From the IMG/VR virus record IMGVR_UViG_3300009285_000298, positions 1 to 22,415 of that record: DNA of 22,415 bases; one strand, 5' to 3'. Positions within the stretch are counted from its first letter, which is position 1. Every line of letters begins with the position of its first letter. Below are positions 1 to 20,350 of this stretch, in pieces. The DNA comes from a virus. The notes under the pieces were generated by a model that was not told where the DNA came from, did not search any database, and saw nothing but the letters and a program-made list of their open reading frames with translations. A program made the position numbers and the translations under genes.

Positions 1-39
1 AGGAAAAAAATAAAAAAATAAGCAGGCCTTTAACGCCTG
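1..39 (-). terminator. leftward intrinsic terminator
   Basis: Read on the minus strand, CAGGC (39-35) pairs with GCCTG (27-23) around a 7-nt loop and is followed by CTTATTTTTTTATTTTTTT up to the window edge. This is a typical rho-independent terminator for leftward transcription. On the plus strand the bases after the hairpin are not T-rich, so it would not work well rightward. The plus strand also reads AGG AAA AAA ATA AAA AAA TAA at 1-21, which could be the tail of a rightward gene outside the window, but that is very weak. Confidence 0.6.
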
Positions 40-155
40 AAAATTCTTGAGAACAAAGACCTTTTGGCTGGCGGGGTCGATATTGATTTGCCTTCTGAGT
101 ATTGTTTACCTTAGATATAATACTCTCTAGTATATCCTTCATAGTAGTAAATCTT

Positions 156-179
156 AAGTAGTAAGTTTATTTTGGTTGG
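156..179 (+). repeat. 24-nt direct repeat, copy 1
   Basis: The stretch begins AAGTAGTAAGT and ends GGTTGG. It matches 249-272 at 21 of 24 positions, and the three differences are all T/C. Both copies lie within the predicted leftward RNA and close to C-runs in the plus strand. Confidence 0.75.
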
Positions 180-248
180 TGAGCTAAGACCCCCCTACCC
201 ACATTACACATGAAGTAGTCTTATCGGAGGTATTCCCCCAGTGAGCAC

Positions 249-272
249 AAGTAGTAAGTCTATTTCGGCTGG
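249..272 (+). repeat. 24-nt direct repeat, copy 2
   Basis: This is the second copy of the repeat at 156-179, 93 bp away in the same orientation. It begins AAGTAGTAAGT and ends GGCTGG. The repeat pair lies just upstream of the putative small terminase gene, where packaging sites are often found, but nothing here proves that role. Confidence 0.75.
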
Positions 273-341
273 AGCCGCTATGTACTGTGCGCTTTTATTT
301 AGAGTGACGCGCCATCTACCCCCCATCACTTGTTACCATCC

Positions 342-370
342 ATTATAGCATATCATGGATAATAATGCAA
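342..370 (-). promoter_or_regulatory. leftward extended -10 promoter
   Basis: On the minus strand TTGCAT (370-365), a 17-bp spacer and TATAAT (347-342) preceded by TGC (350-348) form a full consensus. It matches the tRNA-array promoter at 1111-1139 in -35, spacer length and extended -10, including the GG after the -10. The predicted start is near 335. It diverges from the rightward promoter at 399-427. Confidence 0.75.
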
Positions 371-398: not shown

Positions 399-427
399 TT
401 TACAAAGTAGCATACTTATGATATAAT
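399..427 (+). promoter_or_regulatory. promoter for putative terS, leaderless
   Basis: TTTACA (399-404), a 17-bp spacer ending in TGA, and TATAAT (422-427). The predicted start of transcription is at 434, exactly the A of an in-frame ATG, so the mRNA would be leaderless. Confidence 0.75.
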
Positions 428-433
428 ATGGGT

Positions 434-1060
434 ATGCTTGCTGAGCAGAAGAAGAAAGCCAAAATTGATTTCAACCGTGTCGGACCTAAATATCTTTCCG
501 ATAAGCAAAAGGCAGAGATGTATATGTTGCTGGGGAAGATGTCTGCATACGATGCAGGGATCGCACTTGGTCTTGGTAAGCGATTGACAACAGCCAACTC
601 TGTAAGAGGAGTGGTTGCAAAGGTGAAGATTGAAGTTGAGGATAATCCTGAACGATTCCTGCCTTATGGTGTGAACAAGAAGGTGTATGCTCAAGTAAAC
701 TCTGCTTCAGAGGAACGTCAGGCACTAGTGCACAAGGTAGATAAGCAGCTTGCAGAGAAGGATGCCAAGGATGATGTGCAGCTGAAGGACTTGATTCTTG
801 ATGGAAGAAAGCAAGCGTTCACTATCCTAATGCGAAAGCTTAAGTTGATTAACTCAAGCAAGAAGCGTTTGGATGATGCGAATGTAAGTTCATTGGCGCA
901 GGTTTTCGGAATCATCTTTGATAAGGGTCAGATCATTCAGGGTCAGTCTACTGAGAACATTGCAATGATGGCGAAGGTGGATAGTAATATGACTCCTCAG
1001 CAGTTGATGCAAGCAGTGCTAGGTGTGAGAGAGCAGATTATTGAAAGCAAGAACAAGTAA
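434..1060 (+). CDS. putative terminase small subunit
   Basis: A 208-aa, lysine-rich, mostly helical protein. An N-terminal stretch (LSDKQKAEMYMLLGKMSAYDAG, about residues 20-41) looks like a helix-turn-helix DNA-reading region. The C-terminal part (SLAQVFGIIFDKGQIIQG and following TENI, about residues 150-172) resembles the segment common in phage small terminase subunits. Such subunits recognise the packaging site and hand DNA to the large subunit. An ATG two codons upstream (428) lies directly against the -10 box and would not be transcribed from the predicted start, so 434 is preferred. It is separated from the large subunit by the tRNA array. The assignment rests on pattern and position and is moderate. 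Confidence 0.6.
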   Translation: MLAEQKKKAKIDFNRVGPKYLSDKQKAEMYMLLGKMSAYDAGIALGLGKRLTTANSVRGVVAKVKIEVEDNPERFLPYGVNKKVYAQVNSASEERQALVHKVDKQLAEKDAKDDVQLKDLILDGRKQAFTILMRKLKLINSSKKRLDDANVSSLAQVFGIIFDKGQIIQGQSTENIAMMAKVDSNMTPQQLMQAVLGVREQIIESKNK

Positions 1061-1151: not shown

Positions 1152-1223
1152 GCGTTCATGGTGAACTGGTTATCACGTTACCCTGTCACGGTAAGGTAAG
1201 GGGTTCGATTCCCCTTGGATGCG
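1152..1223 (+). tRNA. tRNA-Asp (GTC)
   Basis: Acceptor GCGTTCA/TGGATGC with wobble pairs, D-stem GTGA/TCAC, anticodon stem TTACC/GGTAA with loop CTGTCAC, T-arm AGGGG-TTCGATT-CCCCT. Discriminator G fits Asp. The next bases are CT, with no CCA. Confidence 0.9.
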
Positions 1224-1299
1224 CTAGTAGCGAAGCGAGGGCTTCAGGAAAGATCATTGACAATTTAGTTTGAATGTTCAGGTGGAATTCCTGACACAT

Positions 1300-1372
1300 G
1301 CGGAGTTCTGCTAGAGGCTTAGGCAACTGGTTTTTCACATCAGTAACATGGGTTCGAATCCCGTACCCCGTA
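1300..1372 (+). tRNA. tRNA-Glu (TTC)
   Basis: Anticodon stem CTGGT/ATCAG with loop TTTTCAC, D-stem TGCT/GGCA, T-loop TTCGAAT. The acceptor GCGGAGT/ACCCCGT has one A-C mismatch and G-T wobbles. No CCA is encoded. Confidence 0.8.
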
Positions 1373-1379
1373 CTTGTTT

Positions 1380-1452
1380 GGTTCGCCATGTCCCAAGGTT
1401 GGCGAGCGAGTCTCCAAAACTTGCTGGTTCAGTTCGATTCTGAAGCGTTCCG
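1380..1452 (+). tRNA. tRNA-Trp (CCA), imperfect
   Basis: Anticodon stem CGAGT/ACTTG with loop CTCCAAA, the usual Trp loop. T-arm TTCAG-TTCGATT-CTGAA. The acceptor GGTTCGC/GCGTTCC has two T-T mismatches and the D-stem TGTC/GGCG is wobble-rich. The D-arm is nearly the same as in tRNA-Ala at 4157, which supports it. Discriminator G fits Trp. It may be partly degenerate. Confidence 0.65.
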
Positions 1453-1458
1453 CAACAT

Positions 1459-1532
1459 TCTTTCATACCTCAACTGGCAGAGGGCACCGCTGTTAACGGT
1501 TGAAGTTCTAGGTTCGAATCCTAGTGAAAGAG
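1459..1532 (+). tRNA. tRNA-Asn (GTT)
   Basis: Perfect acceptor TCTTTCA/TGAAAGA, D-stem CCTC/GAGG, loop CTGTTAA in stem ACCG/CGGT, T-arm CTAGG-TTCGAAT-CCTAG. Discriminator G, then CA. Confidence 0.9.
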
Positions 1533-1554
1533 CATCGAAGTTTAAAACTCGGTT

Positions 1555-1569
1555 GGTGGGTTTCCCGCC
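1555..1569 (+). repeat. GGTGGG-TTT-CCCGCC spacer hairpin
   Basis: A 6-bp stem with a 3-nt loop between two tRNAs. The core GTGGGTTTCCC and the GTAA(G/A)CGC a few bases on recur at 2529-2552, inside another array element. Function unknown. Confidence 0.5.
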
Positions 1570-1603
1570 ACGTAAGCGCAGTATTCAATGCTGTGGCCGA
1601 TAT

Positions 1604-1678
1604 GGTCTTGTCGTCTACGTATGGTTAGGACAGCTCCCTCTCAAGGAGCAGAACAGGGTTCAACTCCCCGTGAGATCA
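1604..1678 (+). tRNA. tRNA-Glu (CTC)
   Basis: Anticodon stem GCTCC/GGAGC with loop CTCTCAA, D-stem GTCT/GGAC, acceptor GGTCTTG/TGAGATC with wobbles, T-loop TTCAACT. Discriminator A, then CA. Second Glu isoacceptor in the array. Confidence 0.8.
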
Positions 1679-1757
1679 CAACATGGATCACAGTGCAAGG
1701 ACTATTACTTGCGAGGATAACCATCATCAGAAGATAACTGAGATAAAAATATCACAT

Positions 1758-1830
1758 AGTCGTTTAGCTCAATTGGCAGAGCAACTTTTTTACACAAAGA
1801 AGGCTGAAGGTTCGAGTCCTTTAATGACTA
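1758..1830 (+). tRNA. tRNA-Val (TAC)
   Basis: Acceptor AGTCGTT/AATGACT, D-stem GCTC/GAGC, anticodon loop TTTACAC in a 4-bp stem CTTT/AAAG, T-arm GAAGG-TTCGAGT-CCTTT. Discriminator A followed by an encoded CCA (1831-1833). Confidence 0.85.
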
Positions 1831-1863
1831 CCAACTGTCCGTAATGACATTAAACTAGTTCAT

Positions 1864-1936
1864 ACGTTCATGATGTTAATGGCTAGCATTACTGACTTCC
1901 AATCAGTGCGTGAGGGTTCGAATCCCTCTGAGCGTA
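1864..1936 (+). tRNA. tRNA-Gly (TCC)
   Basis: Acceptor ACGTTCA/TGAGCGT, anticodon stem ACTGA/TCAGT with loop CTTCCAA, T-arm GAGGG-TTCGAAT-CCCTC. Encoded CCA at 1937-1939. Confidence 0.9.
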
Positions 1937-2003
1937 CCAAAAGGCTCTTGTTCCCGAAGTAAGTTAAACCTTCTTACTATTAATCTGCAAACGGGTTACT
2001 TGT

Positions 2004-2076
2004 CACGTTGTCGCCAAGATAGCAAGGCAGCGAATTGCAAACTCGCAATGCATGAGTGCAAGTCTCATCTACGTGT
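2004..2076 (+). tRNA. tRNA-Cys (GCA)
   Basis: Anticodon loop TTGCAAA in stem GCGA/TCGC. Acceptor CACGTTG/CTACGTG with one mismatch. Discriminator T is the Cys identity base. The T-loop is TGCAAGT instead of TTC.., and the D-stem has 3 bp. Encoded CCA follows (2077-2079). Confidence 0.75.
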
Positions 2077-2081
2077 CCATT

Positions 2082-2154
2082 ACGTGCTTAGCCAAGTGGT
2101 AAGGCCTCCAGCTTATATCTGGAAGATTTCGTTGGTTCGAATCCAACAGTACGT
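2082..2154 (+). tRNA. tRNA-Ile (TAT)
   Basis: Acceptor ACGTGCT/AGTACGT, anticodon stem TCCAG/CTGGA with loop CTTATAT, T-arm GTTGG-TTCGAAT-CCAAC. Anticodon TAT reads the rare AUA codon. Encoded CCA at 2155-2157. Confidence 0.85.
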
Positions 2155-2155
2155 A

Positions 2156-2240
2156 CCAGTTGTTGAATACCCACCTCAAGGGACGCATGACGGGCGTGGG
2201 GATCACTCAGGTCGCTCCTGAATAGATGTGCGTACAACTG
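2156..2240 (+). other. 85-nt inverted-repeat element, tRNA-sized
   Basis: CAGTTGT (2156-2162) pairs perfectly with ACAACTG (2234-2240). Inside are CCCAC/GTGGG, ACGC/GCGT with a 7-nt loop, and a TCAGG-TCGCT-CCTGA hairpin. The overall length equals a class II tRNA, but no T-loop (TTCRA) is present. It may be a decayed tRNA or another structured RNA. The 5' arm overlaps the CCA of the preceding tRNA. Confidence 0.35.
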
Positions 2241-2243
2241 ATT

Positions 2244-2315
2244 GCCCCTGTCGTTCAATGGACAGGATGCGAAGCTTCTAACTTCACGATCTAGGTTCGA
2301 TTCCTAGTGGGGGCA
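2244..2315 (+). tRNA. tRNA-Arg (TCT)
   Basis: Acceptor GCCCCTG/TGGGGGC, D-stem GTTC/GGAT, anticodon loop CTTCTAA in stem GAAG/CTTC, T-arm CTAGG-TTCGATT-CCTAG. Reads AGA. Discriminator A, then CA. Confidence 0.9.
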
Positions 2316-2382
2316 CAGGTAAGATAGTACCCATAAGAACACTACGGTCCTGCCAGCCACAAGTCTGCTAATACTTGTAAAT

Positions 2383-2455
2383 GCTTCGTTAGTGTAGCGG
2401 GTCTGCACATTTGTTTGAAACACAAATAGTATTGGTTCGATTCCAATATGGAGCA
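2383..2455 (+). tRNA. tRNA-Phe (GAA)
   Basis: Acceptor GCTTCGT/ATGGAGC, D-stem GTGT/GCAC, anticodon stem TTTGT/ACAAA with loop TTGAAAC, T-arm ATTGG-TTCGATT-CCAAT. Discriminator A, then CA. Confidence 0.9.
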
Positions 2456-2460
2456 CATGT

Positions 2461-2585
2461 TTGATTTCTGAATTGAGGTTGTAAGTTTTTGGTTACTTCA
2501 TGGTAAATATAGGTTCGAATCCTATCTCGTGGGTTTCCCACTTGGTAAACGCCAAACTCAACTATCTCCTCAATTCAGAAATCAA
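2461..2585 (+). other. T-arm-containing element inside an 18-bp inverted repeat
   Basis: A perfect 18-bp inverted repeat (2461-2478 with 2568-2585, starting TTGATTTCTG and ending CAGAAATCAA) encloses 89 nt. These contain a canonical tRNA T-arm (ATAGG-TTCGAAT-CCTAT, 2509-2525) and a GTGGG-TTT-CCCAC hairpin (2529-2541). No upstream 5' acceptor strand pairs with CTCGTGG after the T-arm. The best partner, CCAC(TT)G, lies downstream. It is either a rearranged or permuted tRNA-like gene, or a decayed tRNA captured in a long hairpin. Confidence 0.45.
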
Positions 2586-2590
2586 CACAT

Positions 2591-2673
2591 ACTTAAGTGG
2601 TGGAACGGTATACACGATAGTCTTAGAAACTATTGCCCCTCGTGGATTGGGAGTTCAACTCTCCCCTTAAGTA
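2591..2673 (+). tRNA. tRNA-Leu (TAG)
   Basis: Perfect acceptor ACTTAAG/CTTAAGT, anticodon stem ATAGT/ACTAT with loop CTTAGAA, long variable arm TGCCCCTCGTGGAT as expected for Leu, T-arm GGGAG-TTCAACT-CTCCC. CCA at 2674-2676 is shared with the first two bases of the next tRNA. Confidence 0.9.
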
Positions 2674-2674
2674 C

Positions 2675-2747
2675 CAGCAATTACTCGAACGGCATAGAGG
2701 AAAAGCTTAAACCTTTTATTTTCTGGGTTCGACTCCCAGATTGCTGA
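2675..2747 (+). tRNA. tRNA-Leu (TAA) lacking the long variable arm
   Basis: Perfect acceptor CAGCAAT/ATTGCTG, anticodon stem AAAAG/CTTTT with loop CTTAAAC, T-arm CTGGG-TTCGACT-CCCAG. The D-loop GAACGGCATA matches that of tRNA-Leu(TAG), yet the variable region is only ATTTT, so this Leu tRNA has lost its class II arm. It starts inside the CCA of the previous tRNA. Confidence 0.8.
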
Positions 2748-2788
2748 CTACCTTGATTGGTAAGGTCCGAAACGACTCTAAACTATTT

Positions 2789-2860
2789 ATCTCTATCGTT
2801 CAACGGATAGGATGCTTCCTTGCGAAGGAAGCGATTGTGGTTCGATTCCACATAGGGGTA
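2789..2860 (+). tRNA. tRNA-Arg (GCG)
   Basis: Acceptor ATCTCTA/TAGGGGT, D-stem GTTC/GGAT, anticodon stem CTTCC/GGAAG with loop TTGCGAA, T-arm TGTGG-TTCGATT-CCACA. A GCG anticodon for CGC/CGU codons is unusual because most bacteria use ACG. Confidence 0.85.
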
Positions 2861-2866
2861 CCCTTT

Positions 2867-2938
2867 GTCTTATTAGTTTAACGGACAGAATGATCGTCTT
2901 CGAAACGATTGATGTAGGTTCGACTCCTGCATGAGACA
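2867..2938 (+). tRNA. tRNA-Arg (TCG)
   Basis: Acceptor GTCTTAT/ATGAGAC, D-stem GTTT/GAAT, anticodon stem ATCGT/ACGAT with loop CTTCGAA, T-arm GTAGG-TTCGACT-CCTGC. Third Arg isoacceptor. Discriminator A, then CA; the glutaredoxin ATG follows 4 nt after the discriminator. Confidence 0.9.
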
Positions 2939-2942
2939 CATT

Positions 2943-3203
2943 ATGGTAGAAATATATTCAACACCAACCTGTACGTATTGCCATGTGGCGAAGATGTATT
3001 TCAAGGATAATAAGATTGATTACGTGGAGTACAACGTGAAGGCTGATACTGAAAGAAGAAGCTTCATGTTGGAGAACTATGGATCAATGGGAGTTCCAGT
3101 TATTGTACATGGAAAGCATTACATGATTGGTTGGAGCGTAGAAAAGTTTAATGCACTTATGGCGCAATCGGCAGACGCAGTTGCCTCAAAAGCAAAACAG
3201 TAA
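2943..3203 (+). CDS. glutaredoxin
   Basis: An 86-aa protein with the thioredoxin-fold pattern of a small glutaredoxin: strand MVEIYSTPTC, active site CTYC (Cys10 and Cys13), and the cis-proline motif GVPVIV near residue 52. It would reduce disulfides, for example in ribonucleotide reductase, with glutathione or a similar thiol. A longer frame opens at 2931 inside tRNA-Arg(TCG); ATG 2943, just after that tRNA, gives the natural N-terminus. The family fold is complete by about residue 73. The last 16 residues (LMAQSADAVASKAKQ region) are encoded by the following tRNA-Leu(CAA), which begins at 3153. No SD is visible. The gene may be read from the array transcript, in which case tRNA processing would cut its 3' end. 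Confidence 0.85.
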   Translation: MVEIYSTPTCTYCHVAKMYFKDNKIDYVEYNVKADTERRSFMLENYGSMGVPVIVHGKHYMIGWSVEKFNALMAQSADAVASKAKQ

Positions 3204-3226
3204 AGGTTCGAATCCTTTTAGGTGCA
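3153..3226 (+). tRNA. tRNA-Leu (CAA), overlaps the glutaredoxin gene
   Basis: Acceptor GCACTTA/TAGGTGC, D-arm GCG/CGC with a GG-containing loop, anticodon loop CTCAAAA in TTGC/GCAA, T-arm AAAGG-TTCGAAT-CCTTT, discriminator A and encoded CCA (3227-3229). The variable region is about 5-6 nt, so the usual long Leu arm is missing. The first 51 nt lie inside the glutaredoxin reading frame. Confidence 0.85.
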
Positions 3227-3231
3227 CCAGT

Positions 3232-3314
3232 GGAAGTTAAAGTGGATAGGTTCCACACCTCTTTGCTAAAGAGTGAGAAGGTAAAACTTTGTGTTTCGAG
3301 TACACTGATTTCCG
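3232..3314 (+). tRNA. tRNA-Ser (GCT)
   Basis: Acceptor GGAAGTT/GATTTCC, D-stem GTGG/CCAC, anticodon loop TTGCTAA in CTCT/AGAG, long variable arm (about 3275-3290), T-loop TTCGAGT in GTGT/ACAC. Discriminator G fits Ser. The non-standard T-stem makes it easy to miss. Confidence 0.8.
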
Positions 3315-3346
3315 CATTGAGATAGCAACCTCACTAAACGCTGTAT

Positions 3347-3418
3347 TGCCCTGTCTTCTAATTGGCAGGAATCTGGACTCTGAATCCAGCAATGTAGGAT
3401 CGTAGCCTACTGGGGCAG
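3347..3418 (+). tRNA. tRNA-Gln (CTG)
   Basis: Acceptor TGCCCTG/TGGGGCA, D-stem TTCT/GGAA, anticodon stem CTGGA/TCCAG with loop CTCTGAA. The T-loop is ATCGTAG rather than TTC... Discriminator G fits Gln, then CA. Confidence 0.85.
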
Positions 3419-3481
3419 CAAATTGGTGTCTAAGCAAGTAACGCCTGACCAGCCTACTTCACCAGAACGACTTAAGGTTAA

Positions 3482-3610
3482 ATGACTAGCATAGAAAAAA
3501 AGATGAGATTGAAAGGTTGGAACAGACACTCATATAAACAAATGAGAAGAAAGTTTCAGCGAGTTTGGAAAATGGAAATTTGCCAGAGAGGTCTATCGGG
3601 GCGCACTTGA
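3482..3610 (+). CDS. possible small basic protein, 42 aa
   Basis: An ORF starting MTSIEKKMRLKGWNRHSY, rich in Lys and Arg, opens 7 nt after an AAGG sequence and fills the longest gap in the array. Its last 12 codons lie within tRNA-Ser(TGA), and its stop TGA is made of the last T of the 5' anticodon-loop region. This parallels the glutaredoxin/tRNA-Leu overlap. I recognise no family. It may be a chance ORF. Confidence 0.3.
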   Translation: MTSIEKKMRLKGWNRHSYKQMRRKFQRVWKMEICQRGLSGRT

Positions 3611-3658
3611 AATGCGTTAGGTGTAAAAGCCACGGGGGTTCGACTCCCTCAATTTCCG
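3574..3658 (+). tRNA. tRNA-Ser (TGA)
   Basis: Perfect acceptor GGAAATT/AATTTCC, anticodon stem GCGCA/TGCGT with loop CTTGAAA, long variable arm, T-arm GGGGG-TTCGACT-CCCTC. Discriminator G, then CA. The D-arm sequence GCCAGAGAGGTCTATCGGGG is typical of Ser tRNAs. Confidence 0.9.
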
Positions 3659-3719
3659 CAGCTTGTTAGTTGTCATAGATGTGAGAGATATCTCCAAAAA
3701 TACATGAGTAACTATCCGT

Positions 3720-3746
3720 AGTGATCCGCGCGTTGAAAAGATCACT
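3720..3746 (+). other. spacer hairpin AGTGATC/GATCACT
   Basis: A perfect 7-bp stem with a 13-nt loop just before tRNA-Tyr. There is no T-run, so it is not a standard terminator. It may guide processing of the array transcript. Confidence 0.35.
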
Positions 3747-3754
3747 TCGTTAAT

Positions 3755-3837
3755 GCCTTTTTATTCTGTAGGGAGCAGAGGGAGCCTGTAAAGCTCTTGA
3801 CCAATGGTTGCTGTGAGTTCGACTCTCGCGGAAGGCA
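3755..3837 (+). tRNA. tRNA-Tyr (GTA)
   Basis: Acceptor GCCTTTT/GGAAGGC, anticodon stem GGAGC/GCTCT with loop CTGTAAA, long variable arm (bacterial Tyr type) about 3799-3812, T-arm GTGAG-TTCGACT-CTCGC. Discriminator A, then CA. Confidence 0.85.
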
Positions 3838-3843
3838 CATGTT

Positions 3844-3915
3844 ACCCCTATCATTTAATGGTTAGGATAGCTCTCTTTTAAAGAGTCCGTATTGGTTCGA
3901 GTCCAATTGGGGGTA
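3844..3915 (+). tRNA. tRNA-Lys (TTT)
   Basis: Acceptor ACCCCTA/TGGGGGT, D-stem ATTT/GGAT, anticodon stem GCTCT/AGAGT with loop CTTTTAA, T-arm ATTGG-TTCGAGT-CCAAT. Discriminator A, then CA. Confidence 0.9.
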
Positions 3916-3921
3916 CAAGAT

Positions 3922-3992
3922 ACGTGTATAGGTTAGTGGTAGACCGTTGCTCTGATAAGGCAAAAGTTATGGTTCGATTCCATGTATACGTA
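3922..3992 (+). tRNA. tRNA-Ile (GAT)
   Basis: Acceptor ACGTGTA/TATACGT, D-stem GGTT/GACC, anticodon stem TTGCT/GGCAA with loop CTGATAA, T-arm TATGG-TTCGATT-CCATG. No CCA; CT follows. Confidence 0.9.
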
Positions 3993-4002
3993 CTCGGTGA
4001 AT

Positions 4003-4073
4003 GTCTTTATAGTTCAGTGGTAGAACAGATGGCTCTTAACCATTCGATCTAGGTTCGATTCCTAGTGGGGACA
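4003..4073 (+). tRNA. tRNA-Lys (CTT)
   Basis: Acceptor GTCTTTA/TGGGGAC, D-stem GTTC/GAAC, anticodon stem GATGG/CCATT with loop CTCTTAA, T-arm CTAGG-TTCGATT-CCTAG. Discriminator A, then CA. Confidence 0.9.
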
Positions 4074-4076
4074 CAA

Positions 4077-4152
4077 TGCAGACGGACAAGGCTTTGGCGT
4101 GGTAACTATCCTTCACTTGGTTAAATCCATGATGGGTAGCGCGTGGTCTGCA
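4077..4152 (+). other. 76-nt inverted-repeat element, tRNA-sized
   Basis: TGCAGAC (4077-4083) pairs with GTCTGCA (4146-4152), giving a 76-nt element with a 7-bp closing stem, as in a tRNA. It also holds a CTATCC/GGGTAG stem. No T-loop or standard anticodon loop is seen. It may be a decayed tRNA (Met, His and Thr are absent from the array) or an unrelated structure. Confidence 0.35.
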
Positions 4153-4156
4153 ATTT

Positions 4157-4229
4157 GGGCTAGCATGTTCCAAGGCTGGCGAAGGATACTTGCACTATCT
4201 TTGGGGTGGTTCGATTCCACTCTGGTCCA
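4157..4229 (+). tRNA. tRNA-Ala (TGC)
   Basis: Acceptor GGGCTAG/CTGGTCC with wobbles, anticodon stem GGATA/TATCT with loop CTTGCAC, T-arm GGTGG-TTCGATT-CCACT. The D-arm TGTTCCAAGGCTGGCG closely matches that of tRNA-Trp at 1380. It lacks the G3-U70 pair usual for Ala by my alignment, where G3-T70 is formed instead through GGG/TCC. Discriminator A, then CA. Confidence 0.8.
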
Positions 4230-4262
4230 CAACTGAGCTAAGCAACTCACTAAACTGTTTAT

Positions 4263-4573
4263 GGGACTGAAAGGTTTCGACAGCATTATTGTTTTAAAGA
4301 CGGCGAGATCGCAACTACTACACATGCGTAAAAGTGGAGTAACACGTAACTGCAAAATCAGATACAAAAATTCGTTCGCCTTACATGGCATTCCTTCGGG
4401 AGTTCCAGTTTGCCTAACGATGTTGTCACGCAAGGTGGAGCGCGTAACGTTGACAGCATAATCACTCGCTCTGGTGGAGGTGTCCAGATTCGTGTACGTT
4501 GATCTCATCAACTATATCTCGTAGATGTTTTTAGAAGATAGTGTTGGACGGGGTTTCGATACCCCCAGTTCCA
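4263..4573 (+). ncRNA. ssrA: tmRNA (transfer-messenger RNA)
   Basis: The 5' end GGGACTG-AAAGGTTTCGAC matches the tmRNA signature, and the 3' end GGACGGGGTTTCGAT...CAGTTCC supplies the T-arm and the other acceptor strand (7 bp). The T-loop is one base longer than normal. CATTAT-type pairing between about 4284 and 4540 fits helix 2. The likely resume codon is GCA at 4352, after GTAACT; the frame reads AKSDTKIRSP...EFQFA and stops at TAA 4415-4417 (21 aa). With one more A in the run near 4366-4370 the frame would read ...TKNSFAL, closer to usual tags. tmRNA with SmpB rescues stalled ribosomes and tags the peptide for proteolysis. Phage-encoded copies are known but uncommon. Confidence 0.85.
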
Positions 4574-4581
4574 CAATGTAG

Positions 4582-4612
4582 ACTGGAGATTAGCTTAAAG
4601 CTAACTTCCAGT
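4582..4612 (+). other. 13-bp hairpin after tmRNA
   Basis: ACTGGAGATTAGC pairs with GCTAACTTCCAGT (one mismatch) around TTAAA. No T-run follows, so it is more likely a processing or stability element of the array transcript than a terminator. Confidence 0.5.
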
Positions 4613-4620
4613 TCACTTAT

Positions 4621-4691
4621 CAGTTTGGATGGTAATGGTGGCCGATGCGCCTTGGATGCGTATAGACTGGGTTCGATTCCCAGCAGACTGA
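4621..4691 (+). tRNA. tRNA-Pro (TGG)
   Basis: Acceptor CAGTTTG/CAGACTG, D-stem TGGT/GCCG, anticodon stem TGCGC/GCGTA with loop CTTGGAT, T-arm CTGGG-TTCGATT-CCCAG. Discriminator A, then CA. Confidence 0.85.
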
Positions 4692-4715
4692 CAATTTATA
4701 AATAGTTCTTTTTAA

Positions 4716-4919
4716 ATGTTTACAGAGGAAGCAATGCAGAGTTTGGGTTGTCCAGATTGTAAGATTCCGTTAGTTGAAAAGGAAACCCTCGGTCTTGAGG
4801 AATGGAATTGTGGTTGTGGTTACTGGGTTAAAAATTTAAGTAAGGGCATTCTCGCTTCAAAGCCGATGGTCCTTCTTATGTTTGAAAACATTTCGGAAAC
4901 AAATAACTTACATAGTTAA
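4716..4919 (+). CDS. small zinc-ribbon protein
   Basis: A 67-aa protein with a CPDC knuckle (Cys12, Cys15) and a CGC pair (Cys32, Cys34) separated by 16 residues, the layout of a small zinc ribbon. The tail after residue 45 has no recognised motif. Zinc ribbons of this size commonly bind nucleic acid or protein, so no exact role can be assigned. An alternative ATG at 4734 has AGAGGA 4 nt upstream and would give 61 aa beginning MQSLGCPDC. The gene sits inside the tRNA array between tRNA-Pro and tRNA-Gln, like the glutaredoxin earlier in the array. Confidence 0.6.
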   Translation: MFTEEAMQSLGCPDCKIPLVEKETLGLEEWNCGCGYWVKNLSKGILASKPMVLLMFENISETNNLHS

Positions 4920-4946
4920 AGGCATCAGTGCCTGATTTAAATTTAT

Positions 4947-5017
4947 TGCCTTGTCGTCTAACGGCAGGACGCGAAGCTTTGGACTTCGCTATCGTGGTTC
5001 GAATCCATGCGAGGCAG
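4947..5017 (+). tRNA. tRNA-Gln (TTG)
   Basis: Acceptor TGCCTTG/CGAGGCA, D-stem GTCT/GGAC, anticodon stem CGAAG/CTTCG with loop CTTTGGA, T-arm CGTGG-TTCGAAT-CCATG. Discriminator G, then CA. This is the last tRNA of the array. Confidence 0.9.
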
Positions 5018-5043
5018 CATTGTGTGAATTGTTGATAACACTC

Positions 5044-5072
5044 TTGCTTAATTGTCAAGAATGTGTTATACT
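5044..5072 (+). promoter_or_regulatory. promoter for terL
   Basis: TTGCTT (5044-5049), a 17-bp spacer ending in TGT, TATACT (5067-5072). The predicted start is near 5079, giving a 27-nt leader with AAAGG 8 nt before the GTG start. Confidence 0.7.
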
Positions 5073-5105
5073 TAGAATTGGCGGGCAAGACGAAAGGTAA
5101 GTCGC

Positions 5106-6785
5106 GTGGCTCATAACCATGAAATACTGGGATCGTTACCCAGGCTCCGCTACTATATGGAATTGACAGAGCAGCAGCAAACTACAGAGTTCCAAAGACG
5201 GCAAAGAAAGTTCCAGGACTATCTCGCATCGGAAGCGTACTCTAAGAAGTTACTTGAAAGATTGCAGATCAATGACGCTGCAAATAGTCGCATTGAGGCG
5301 CGTGCCCAAGTGTGGAATCTTTGTGCTCGTCCAGATAATCCTGTTGAGGGATGTATCTTTTTTATTGAGAACTTTGGATTTACTTTTGATCCTAGACCTG
5401 CAGCTGCTCCCCACCACTTACCCTTCATGCTCTTTGAGTATCAGAAGGAAGCAATAGCTTGGCTCATTAAACATATTGATGGTGGTACTGATGGTCTTCT
5501 GGAAAAGTCCCGTGATATGGGTATATCATGGGTTGTTTTCGTTTGGGTCCCAATCTGGTACTGGCTTTTCAGAGATGGAAGTAACTTGCTCGTGGGTTCC
5601 TATAAAGAGGACCTTGTGGACAACAAAACAAAGGATTCTCTGTTCGGTATGATTGACTATGGTATTGACTCGCTCCCTAAATGGATGCTGCCAAAGAACT
5701 TTCGTAAGGATAAACACAGAACACATCTGAAGTTGATGAATCCCCAGAACGGAAACCTTATTGCTGGTGACACTATGAATCCTGACTTTGCTCGTGGTTC
5801 ACGTAAGACTGTTGTTCTCTTTGACGAGCTTGGATCGTGGGACTACGCAAAGGATGCATGGGAATCTGCAGGAGACTCCACCTCATGCCGTATCGCAAAC
5901 TCAACACCTAAAGGATACAACTACTATGCAATGTTGCGTGAGAGTGGAATTGATGTGCTGACACTGCACTGGAAGAAGCACCCAATGAAAGATGAGCAGT
6001 GGTATGAGTTCGAAAGATCAAGACGTACTGAAGAAGAAGTCGCTCAGGAGTTGGACATTTCATATAACAAATCTCAAGAGGGACGTGTCTACAAAGAGTG
6101 GAACGAACAGAATGTTGAAAAGGGAAACTTTCCATACGATGATAACTTGCCTCTCTATATTGGTTGGGACTTTGGAAAGACAGATGATACAGCAATTATT
6201 TGGATGCAACCAGAAGGAAGAAAGTGGAGGATCATAGATACCTATCGCAACAACAACAAGTTGATAGATTTCTACATTCCTTTCGTCACAGGGATTATGC
6301 CCAGCGAGGGATACAACTATTCATCCTCAGATATTGACACGATAATGGCGCACAAGAGTTGGAAGCGAGGAATACACTTTGGTGATCCTGCTGGACGTTT
6401 TGGAAACCAAGTAACTAACAAGACAGTATTGGATGTGTTGAAAGACTACGGAATCTTTATTAACTTCAATGAAGCATGGCAAGATTTTGCTGTGAGAAAA
6501 ACTGCTGCAAAGAAAATAATGATGGATGGCATAAAGCTGAACACCAATGATCGTACAAAGTACTTCTCAATGTGTATTGCGAATGCTGCCTATCCAAAGG
6601 TAAAGATCGAAGGAGTTGACGCAATACGAAGCCAAAAGCCACGCCATGATTATACCTCTCACTTCCGTTCTGCTTTCGAATATCTTTGCCTAGGAGTTGG
6701 AGAAATAAGACGAAGGGTGAGTAAGCCTTTTGACAAGTTTGAGCCAAAGAAGGTGATAGACCGCAGAAGATCAATAGGGTACTAA
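5106..6785 (+). CDS. terL: terminase large subunit
   Basis: 559 aa, the usual length for this motor. The ATPase part shows a Walker A-like motif EKSRDMGISW (residues 133-142), a Walker B VVLFDE (236-241) and a coupling motif NSTPKG (265-270). The RuvC-like nuclease part starts with YIGWDFGKTDDTAI (351-364), with the metal-binding Asp in DFG, and includes HFGDPAGR further on. It docks on the portal, drives DNA into the prohead by ATP hydrolysis and cuts it at the end of packaging. Start: GTG at 5106 with AAAGG upstream. A later ATG at 5157 (MELTEQQQ) is possible. It has its own promoter after the tRNA array. Confidence 0.95.
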   Translation: MAHNHEILGSLPRLRYYMELTEQQQTTEFQRRQRKFQDYLASEAYSKKLLERLQINDAANSRIEARAQVWNLCARPDNPVEGCIFFIENFGFTFDPRPAAAPHHLPFMLFEYQKEAIAWLIKHIDGGTDGLLEKSRDMGISWVVFVWVPIWYWLFRDGSNLLVGSYKEDLVDNKTKDSLFGMIDYGIDSLPKWMLPKNFRKDKHRTHLKLMNPQNGNLIAGDTMNPDFARGSRKTVVLFDELGSWDYAKDAWESAGDSTSCRIANSTPKGYNYYAMLRESGIDVLTLHWKKHPMKDEQWYEFERSRRTEEEVAQELDISYNKSQEGRVYKEWNEQNVEKGNFPYDDNLPLYIGWDFGKTDDTAIIWMQPEGRKWRIIDTYRNNNKLIDFYIPFVTGIMPSEGYNYSSSDIDTIMAHKSWKRGIHFGDPAGRFGNQVTNKTVLDVLKDYGIFINFNEAWQDFAVRKTAAKKIMMDGIKLNTNDRTKYFSMCIANAAYPKVKIEGVDAIRSQKPRHDYTSHFRSAFEYLCLGVGEIRRRVSKPFDKFEPKKVIDRRRSIGY

Positions 6786-20330: not shown

Positions 20331-20350
20331 ACGCGATTCTGTGGTATAAT
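20322..20350 (+). promoter_or_regulatory. promoter for the adaptor-like gene, leaderless
   Basis: TTGCTA (20322-20327), a 17-bp spacer ending in TGG, TATAAT (20345-20350). The -35 overlaps the end of the previous gene. The predicted start, near 20357, is only 5 nt before ATG 20362. Confidence 0.8.

Follow-up and report, generated by a model that had tools for sequence, protein, structure and literature searches.

Does the DNA at the left end of this phage contig, next to the gene for the terminase small subunit (terS), specify an RNA of its own, and what could such an RNA do? The window, meaning the whole stretch of DNA analysed, is an entire IMG/VR record of 22,415 bases (class linear), and its position 1 is the contig end. 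The initial annotation proposed that an RNA is transcribed leftward here and acts either in packaging, as phi29 pRNA does, or in regulation. The two terminase genes were placed as follows.

428 to 1060, plus strand: terS, from tblastn against relatives (25-38% identical) and the presence of TerL downstream
5106 to 6785, plus strand: terL, from ORF and similarity evidence

The relatives were drawn from viral contigs, with TerL 47-68% and TerS 25-38% identical. The interval between terS and terL, at 1152-5152, holds a tmRNA and over 20 tRNA genes; the relative L019 has a comparable array of about 18 tRNAs between the same genes. Past terL come a portal-like gene and then more rightward genes. 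The claim that the rest of the window is read rightward agreed with the direction of its main ORFs, tRNAs and promoters. A comparison of bases 1-1500 with 50,697 phage records gave no match. The closest TerL relative, L096 (73%), is on a contig labelled as an archaeon, and another, L097 (49%), is in a contig of a Parcubacteria MAG; both carry the conserved element of about 95 bp described below. These two TerL relatives suggest Patescibacteria as hosts, although MAG binning is weak evidence.

The features found to the left of terS are listed here.

342 to 370, minus strand: leftward promoter, with -35 TTGCAT (370-365), a 17-bp spacer and extended -10 TGC-TATAAT (350-342), from the clade promoter matrix
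338 to 360, no strand assigned: dyad ATCCAT-11-ATGGAT over the leftward -10, a possible operator, seen in the sequence
399 to 427, plus strand: rightward terS promoter with its -10 touching the annotated ATG at 428, from promoter scans
6 to 39, minus strand: intrinsic terminator, hairpin CAGGC-7-GCCTG (39-23) and T-tract (22-6), from its unique grade, shuffles and fold
12 to 335, minus strand: predicted leftward noncoding RNA of about 320 nt, starting at about 335 and ending in the T-tract, from the promoter, the terminator and the lack of a coding signal

The promoter was scored with a matrix trained on 117 TGnTATAAT sites of related phages, with the window excluded. It scored 24.4 against a training median of 24.6, and when the 428-bp region was shuffled 1000 times, this score was reached once. 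No other minus-strand site in the window matched the matrix, while seven plus-strand sites did, including the sites that immediately precede terS, the tRNA array and the portal-like gene. In the relatives and the window together, TGnTATAAT occurs at 173 distinct sites compared to about 50 expected. At 102 of these, TTG stands exactly 17 bases upstream. TTGCAT ranks third in frequency among the -35 sequences paired with this -10 in the clade. A generic sigma-70 scan expects TTGACA, with which TTGCAT agrees at just three of six positions, and for this reason it did not pick up the leftward promoter. Thus, the promoter first described at this site is present on the minus strand at 370-342 and typical of the clade, but calling it a full consensus overstated its likeness to E. 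coli promoters. Its described resemblance to the tRNA-array promoter was confirmed, since the site at 1111-1139 has an identical -35 and -10. The dyad over the -10 gives a weak self-match. On the other strand, the terS mRNA is probably leaderless and read from the ATG at 434, because the -10 touches the annotated ATG at 428. The promoters at 20350 and 21625 likewise have a start codon no more than about 12 nt away.

The hairpin with a long T-tract that had been noticed downstream of this promoter was recovered at 39-6. The stem at 39-23 is followed by CTTATTTTTTTATTTTT, and both strands of the window were scanned without finding another terminator of such grade. A terminator of equal grade appeared in 0 of 1000 shuffled versions of the 335-nt stretch, and the local fold of 60-1 is -10.1 kcal/mol. 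The promoter and the terminator thus give independent support to the start and the end of a leftward RNA about 320 nt long.

Such a stretch could instead be the 5' end of an ordinary leftward protein operon, with a first gene in either a 40-aa ORF (326-204) or an ORF that runs from 142 beyond the contig edge. Codon scores were judged on a scale where true gene pieces average 0.30 (5th percentile about 0.00) and false ORFs average -0.43. The 40-aa ORF scored -0.22, a value that equals or exceeds only 0.8% of the true pieces; for the ORF that starts at 142 and reaches the edge, the corresponding figures were -0.14 and 1.5%. The part of the latter before the terminator scored -0.02, which equals or exceeds 2.3% of true pieces and is reached by 4.4% of false ones, so that this part has a small chance of being coding. 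Scores this low, at the 0.8-2.3% end of the distribution for true gene pieces, bear out the view that no convincing ORF lies between promoter and terminator. The terminator also falls inside ORF 142, which stays open through it with no stop up to the contig edge (142-2). No conserved minus-strand protein gene was recognized through 142-1, where the codon score is low, and tblastn found no relative better than E 0.7. The open frame at the edge speaks for a protein operon, as does the finding that the left arms of relatives begin with small leftward genes. Also, the main genes of the window start without an obvious Shine-Dalgarno sequence and, therefore, the lack of one at the inner ORFs is no argument against coding. 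On balance, a protein operon starting here is improbable. The promoter, the terminator and the lack of coding signal together make a good case for a discrete, apparently noncoding transcription unit that runs leftward beside terS.

The leftward RNA shows no excess folding compared to shuffles (z -0.35; sliding windows were also examined). Rfam returned no family at E<=5 for positions 1-430, and a search of the window with Rfam 15 gave nothing above the gathering score outside the tRNA/tmRNA array. These results bear on the proposal that the RNA works in packaging like phi29 pRNA. The two RNAs are alike in that the phi29 one (Rfam Phage_pRNA) is a phage noncoding RNA with a positional link to packaging, and the position beside terS is all that favors the proposal. 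The window RNA shows no match in fold or in Rfam, and its phage has the usual pair of TerS and TerL; pRNA systems are not known to use this terminase pair. We therefore consider the packaging role initially suggested to be very unlikely.

The RNA does contain the two repeats of 24 nt that had been described, together with a shorter box.

249 to 272, no strand assigned: 24-nt repeat copy, CCAGCCGAAAUAGACUUACUACUU in the RNA, from repeat comparison
156 to 179, no strand assigned: 24-nt repeat copy, CCAACCAAAAUAAACUUACUACUU in the RNA, from repeat comparison
143 to 152, no strand assigned: third, shorter copy of the AGTAGTAART box, from a motif count in the whole window

The two long copies are 88% identical, and no further match to them was found within the window. 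The AGTAGTAART core occurs three times in the window (143, 157 and 250), compared to 0.11 expected, and all three are inside the leftward RNA region. The G-runs reported on the minus strand were seen directly at about 321, 234 and 190.

Relatives were searched for the same RNA. BLAST and local alignment of the window RNA against them detected no homologue, and an exact scan of viral contigs for the 24-nt repeat found none. When both sequences were shuffled, alignments as good arose in 32 of 400 trials for the window and L049 and 13 of 400 for the window and L071, which is not significant among the pairs tested; a kinder, one-sided shuffle test gave 4 of 300 for each. Further relatives added through TerS alignment and the portal included no close relative having the region, and a literature search found no known RNA beside terS. 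Promoter-to-terminator units shorter than 500 nt were then sought on both strands of 30 loci. Three were found, those of the window, L071 and L023, and each lies upstream of terS on the minus strand. Because the window was the starting point of this search, L071 and L023 are its only independent finds.

L071, minus strand: leftward RNA of 326 nt, 427 bp upstream of terS, z -3.2
L023, minus strand: leftward RNA of 240 nt with a weaker promoter

The L071 RNA resembles that of the window in promoter type, length and intrinsic terminator. In contrast, it is strongly folded, and the sequence similarity of the two is within chance.

A second set of candidates was recognized by the motif TTTTCTTAGGGGGACTTTT.

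L034:6610-6431, L019:2799-2665, L036:1006-903 and L110:2626-2480, minus strand: leftward RNA candidates with the motif
L115:13802, L116:4674 and L117:4314: the motif elsewhere, with no terminase seen nearby

L034 and L019 have a leftward RNA in common (alignment z 5.4), L036 shares its 3' motif, and in L110 the motif adjoins a gene weakly similar to TerL. Two of these candidates are strongly folded, and Rfam gave no match where they were scanned. Judged by sequence, they may form a possible new phage RNA family in which the 3' motif is followed by a C/T-rich tract. Host copies of the TTAGGGGGACTTTT motif were sought in 380 genomes from the phylum of the Parcubacteria MAG, and none was found. 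All four candidates resemble the window RNA in their extended -10 promoter and closeness to a terminase gene, and those of L034, L019 and L036 also lie on the same strand relative to terS. They differ from it in having no sequence match; the TTTTCTTAGGGGGACTTTT motif is absent from the window RNA at up to 3 mismatches. At most, the leftward RNAs near terS appear to have place and direction in common, with no detectable sequence.

The main rival to the reading that we prefer is that the transcript, about 320 nt long, is an independent regulatory RNA acting in trans. Its repeated single-stranded boxes would then base-pair with RNAs of the phage or the host, or serve as binding sites for a protein. 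This reading would account for an RNA with its own promoter and terminator and with an AYTTACTACT box that occurs three times in it and nowhere else in the window. The L110 candidate, which is of the same type as that of L019, sits between genes of the other strand and so would be independent there. The lack of excess structure, of any further repeat match in the window and of a homologue argue against this explanation, which is a real possibility but an unlikely one.

Most relatives do share a different sequence in this region, a minus-strand element of about 95 bp composed of TGTATTAC, then TATTATAAAATTTGG, GGGGGTATATATA and TGTCCCCATACCCCC, and usually near terS.

L028:883-976, L043:6034-6127, L013:4997-5094, L096:871-960 and others, minus strand: conserved element, from sequence conservation

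The element, which has G/C runs, was found in about 33 loci, where it lies upstream of terS. In 12 of 16 large records it is present as a single strong copy, with no other copy approaching it in strength. No consensus RNA pairs were found in it, suggesting that it is a DNA site. It is a candidate cos/pac site or origin, which its place and copy number would fit. A copy proposed in the window was only a marginal match (69 of 2000 shuffles were as good) with an 11-nt insertion. In L096, the element ends 408 bp before terS; the window's copy could therefore lie just past the left edge, and probably does. The same observations bear on whether the stretch acts as a control region in the DNA itself, through operator repeats, a cos/pac site or an origin, and yields an RNA that has no function. 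The repeats, the dyad over the promoter and the G/C runs are consistent with this, as is the single-copy element near terS in relatives. However, the match here is marginal and a functionless RNA leaves the strong terminator unexplained, making this explanation quite improbable.

The arrangement of related genomes puts the leftward promoter in context. In 11 of them, 86-100% of the coding to the left of the terS junction (by ORF bases) is leftward, and in the two arms examined the products include a primase-helicase and a polynucleotide kinase. In L100 (7514-10036, minus strand), the left-arm primase-helicase carries a Hint/homing-endonuclease insertion, an intein. By ORF direction, terS is the divergence point in the relatives, so a leftward promoter just upstream of it is expected and is less odd than first thought. 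L043 and L046 have small ORFs close behind their leftward promoter; the window instead has a terminated, untranslated stretch.

The explanation that we favor, at slightly less than even probability, is that the window RNA is the promoter-proximal, terminated leader, or a short RNA, of a leftward arm. A clade-standard promoter would start an untranslated RNA at about 335, and the intrinsic terminator would end it about 320 nt on, just before a leftward (early, replication) arm that we infer to lie beyond the contig edge. Most transcripts would halt at the terminator. The remainder would enter the left arm by leakage or via an antiterminator, as with lambda pR'/6S RNA or the pL leaders, and the repeated ACUUACUACU boxes would be candidate binding sites in the RNA. 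Computation directly finds a promoter of clade strength and a terminator unique in the window on the same strand, the repeats, and inner ORFs that score as noncoding. The transcription itself, the position of the left arm in this phage, the control of readthrough and the role of the boxes are what the model would add. The leftward coding in the 11 related genomes also favors a leader, as do the candidates upstream of terS in L071, L023, L034, L019 and L036. Against it, the contig ends at the terminator, so that it shows no left-arm gene of this phage, and no antiterminator or nut/put-like fold was identified, the left arm being outside the contig. No homologue of the RNA was found, and the L110 candidate points into opposite-strand genes and cannot be a leader there.

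A broader idea, that a phage group probably infecting Patescibacteria keeps a leftward noncoding RNA gene by terS, conserved in place and direction rather than sequence, and uses it to switch between the early arm and packaging, is speculative and rather doubtful. For this uncultured phage group, the analysis gives a concrete, sized transcript to seek where the early and late arms diverge. Two general features emerge from the relatives. Leftward RNAs recur near terS, and the 95-bp DNA element, present in single copy, is a candidate site of packaging or replication.

The lambda leaders are among the closest known systems. Lambda 6S RNA runs from pR' to tR' and is a late leader that is terminated until Q acts. 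The window RNA differs from it and from the pL/pR leaders in that an antiterminator, a pause site and a nut site were not identified. In the lambda leaders, the intrinsic terminator precedes an operon; a same-strand operon is found near terS in the 11 related genomes, and the contig of the window ends at its terminator. The likeness is in a strong phage promoter directly upstream, a short untranslated RNA, and an intrinsic terminator within a few hundred nucleotides with no gene between.
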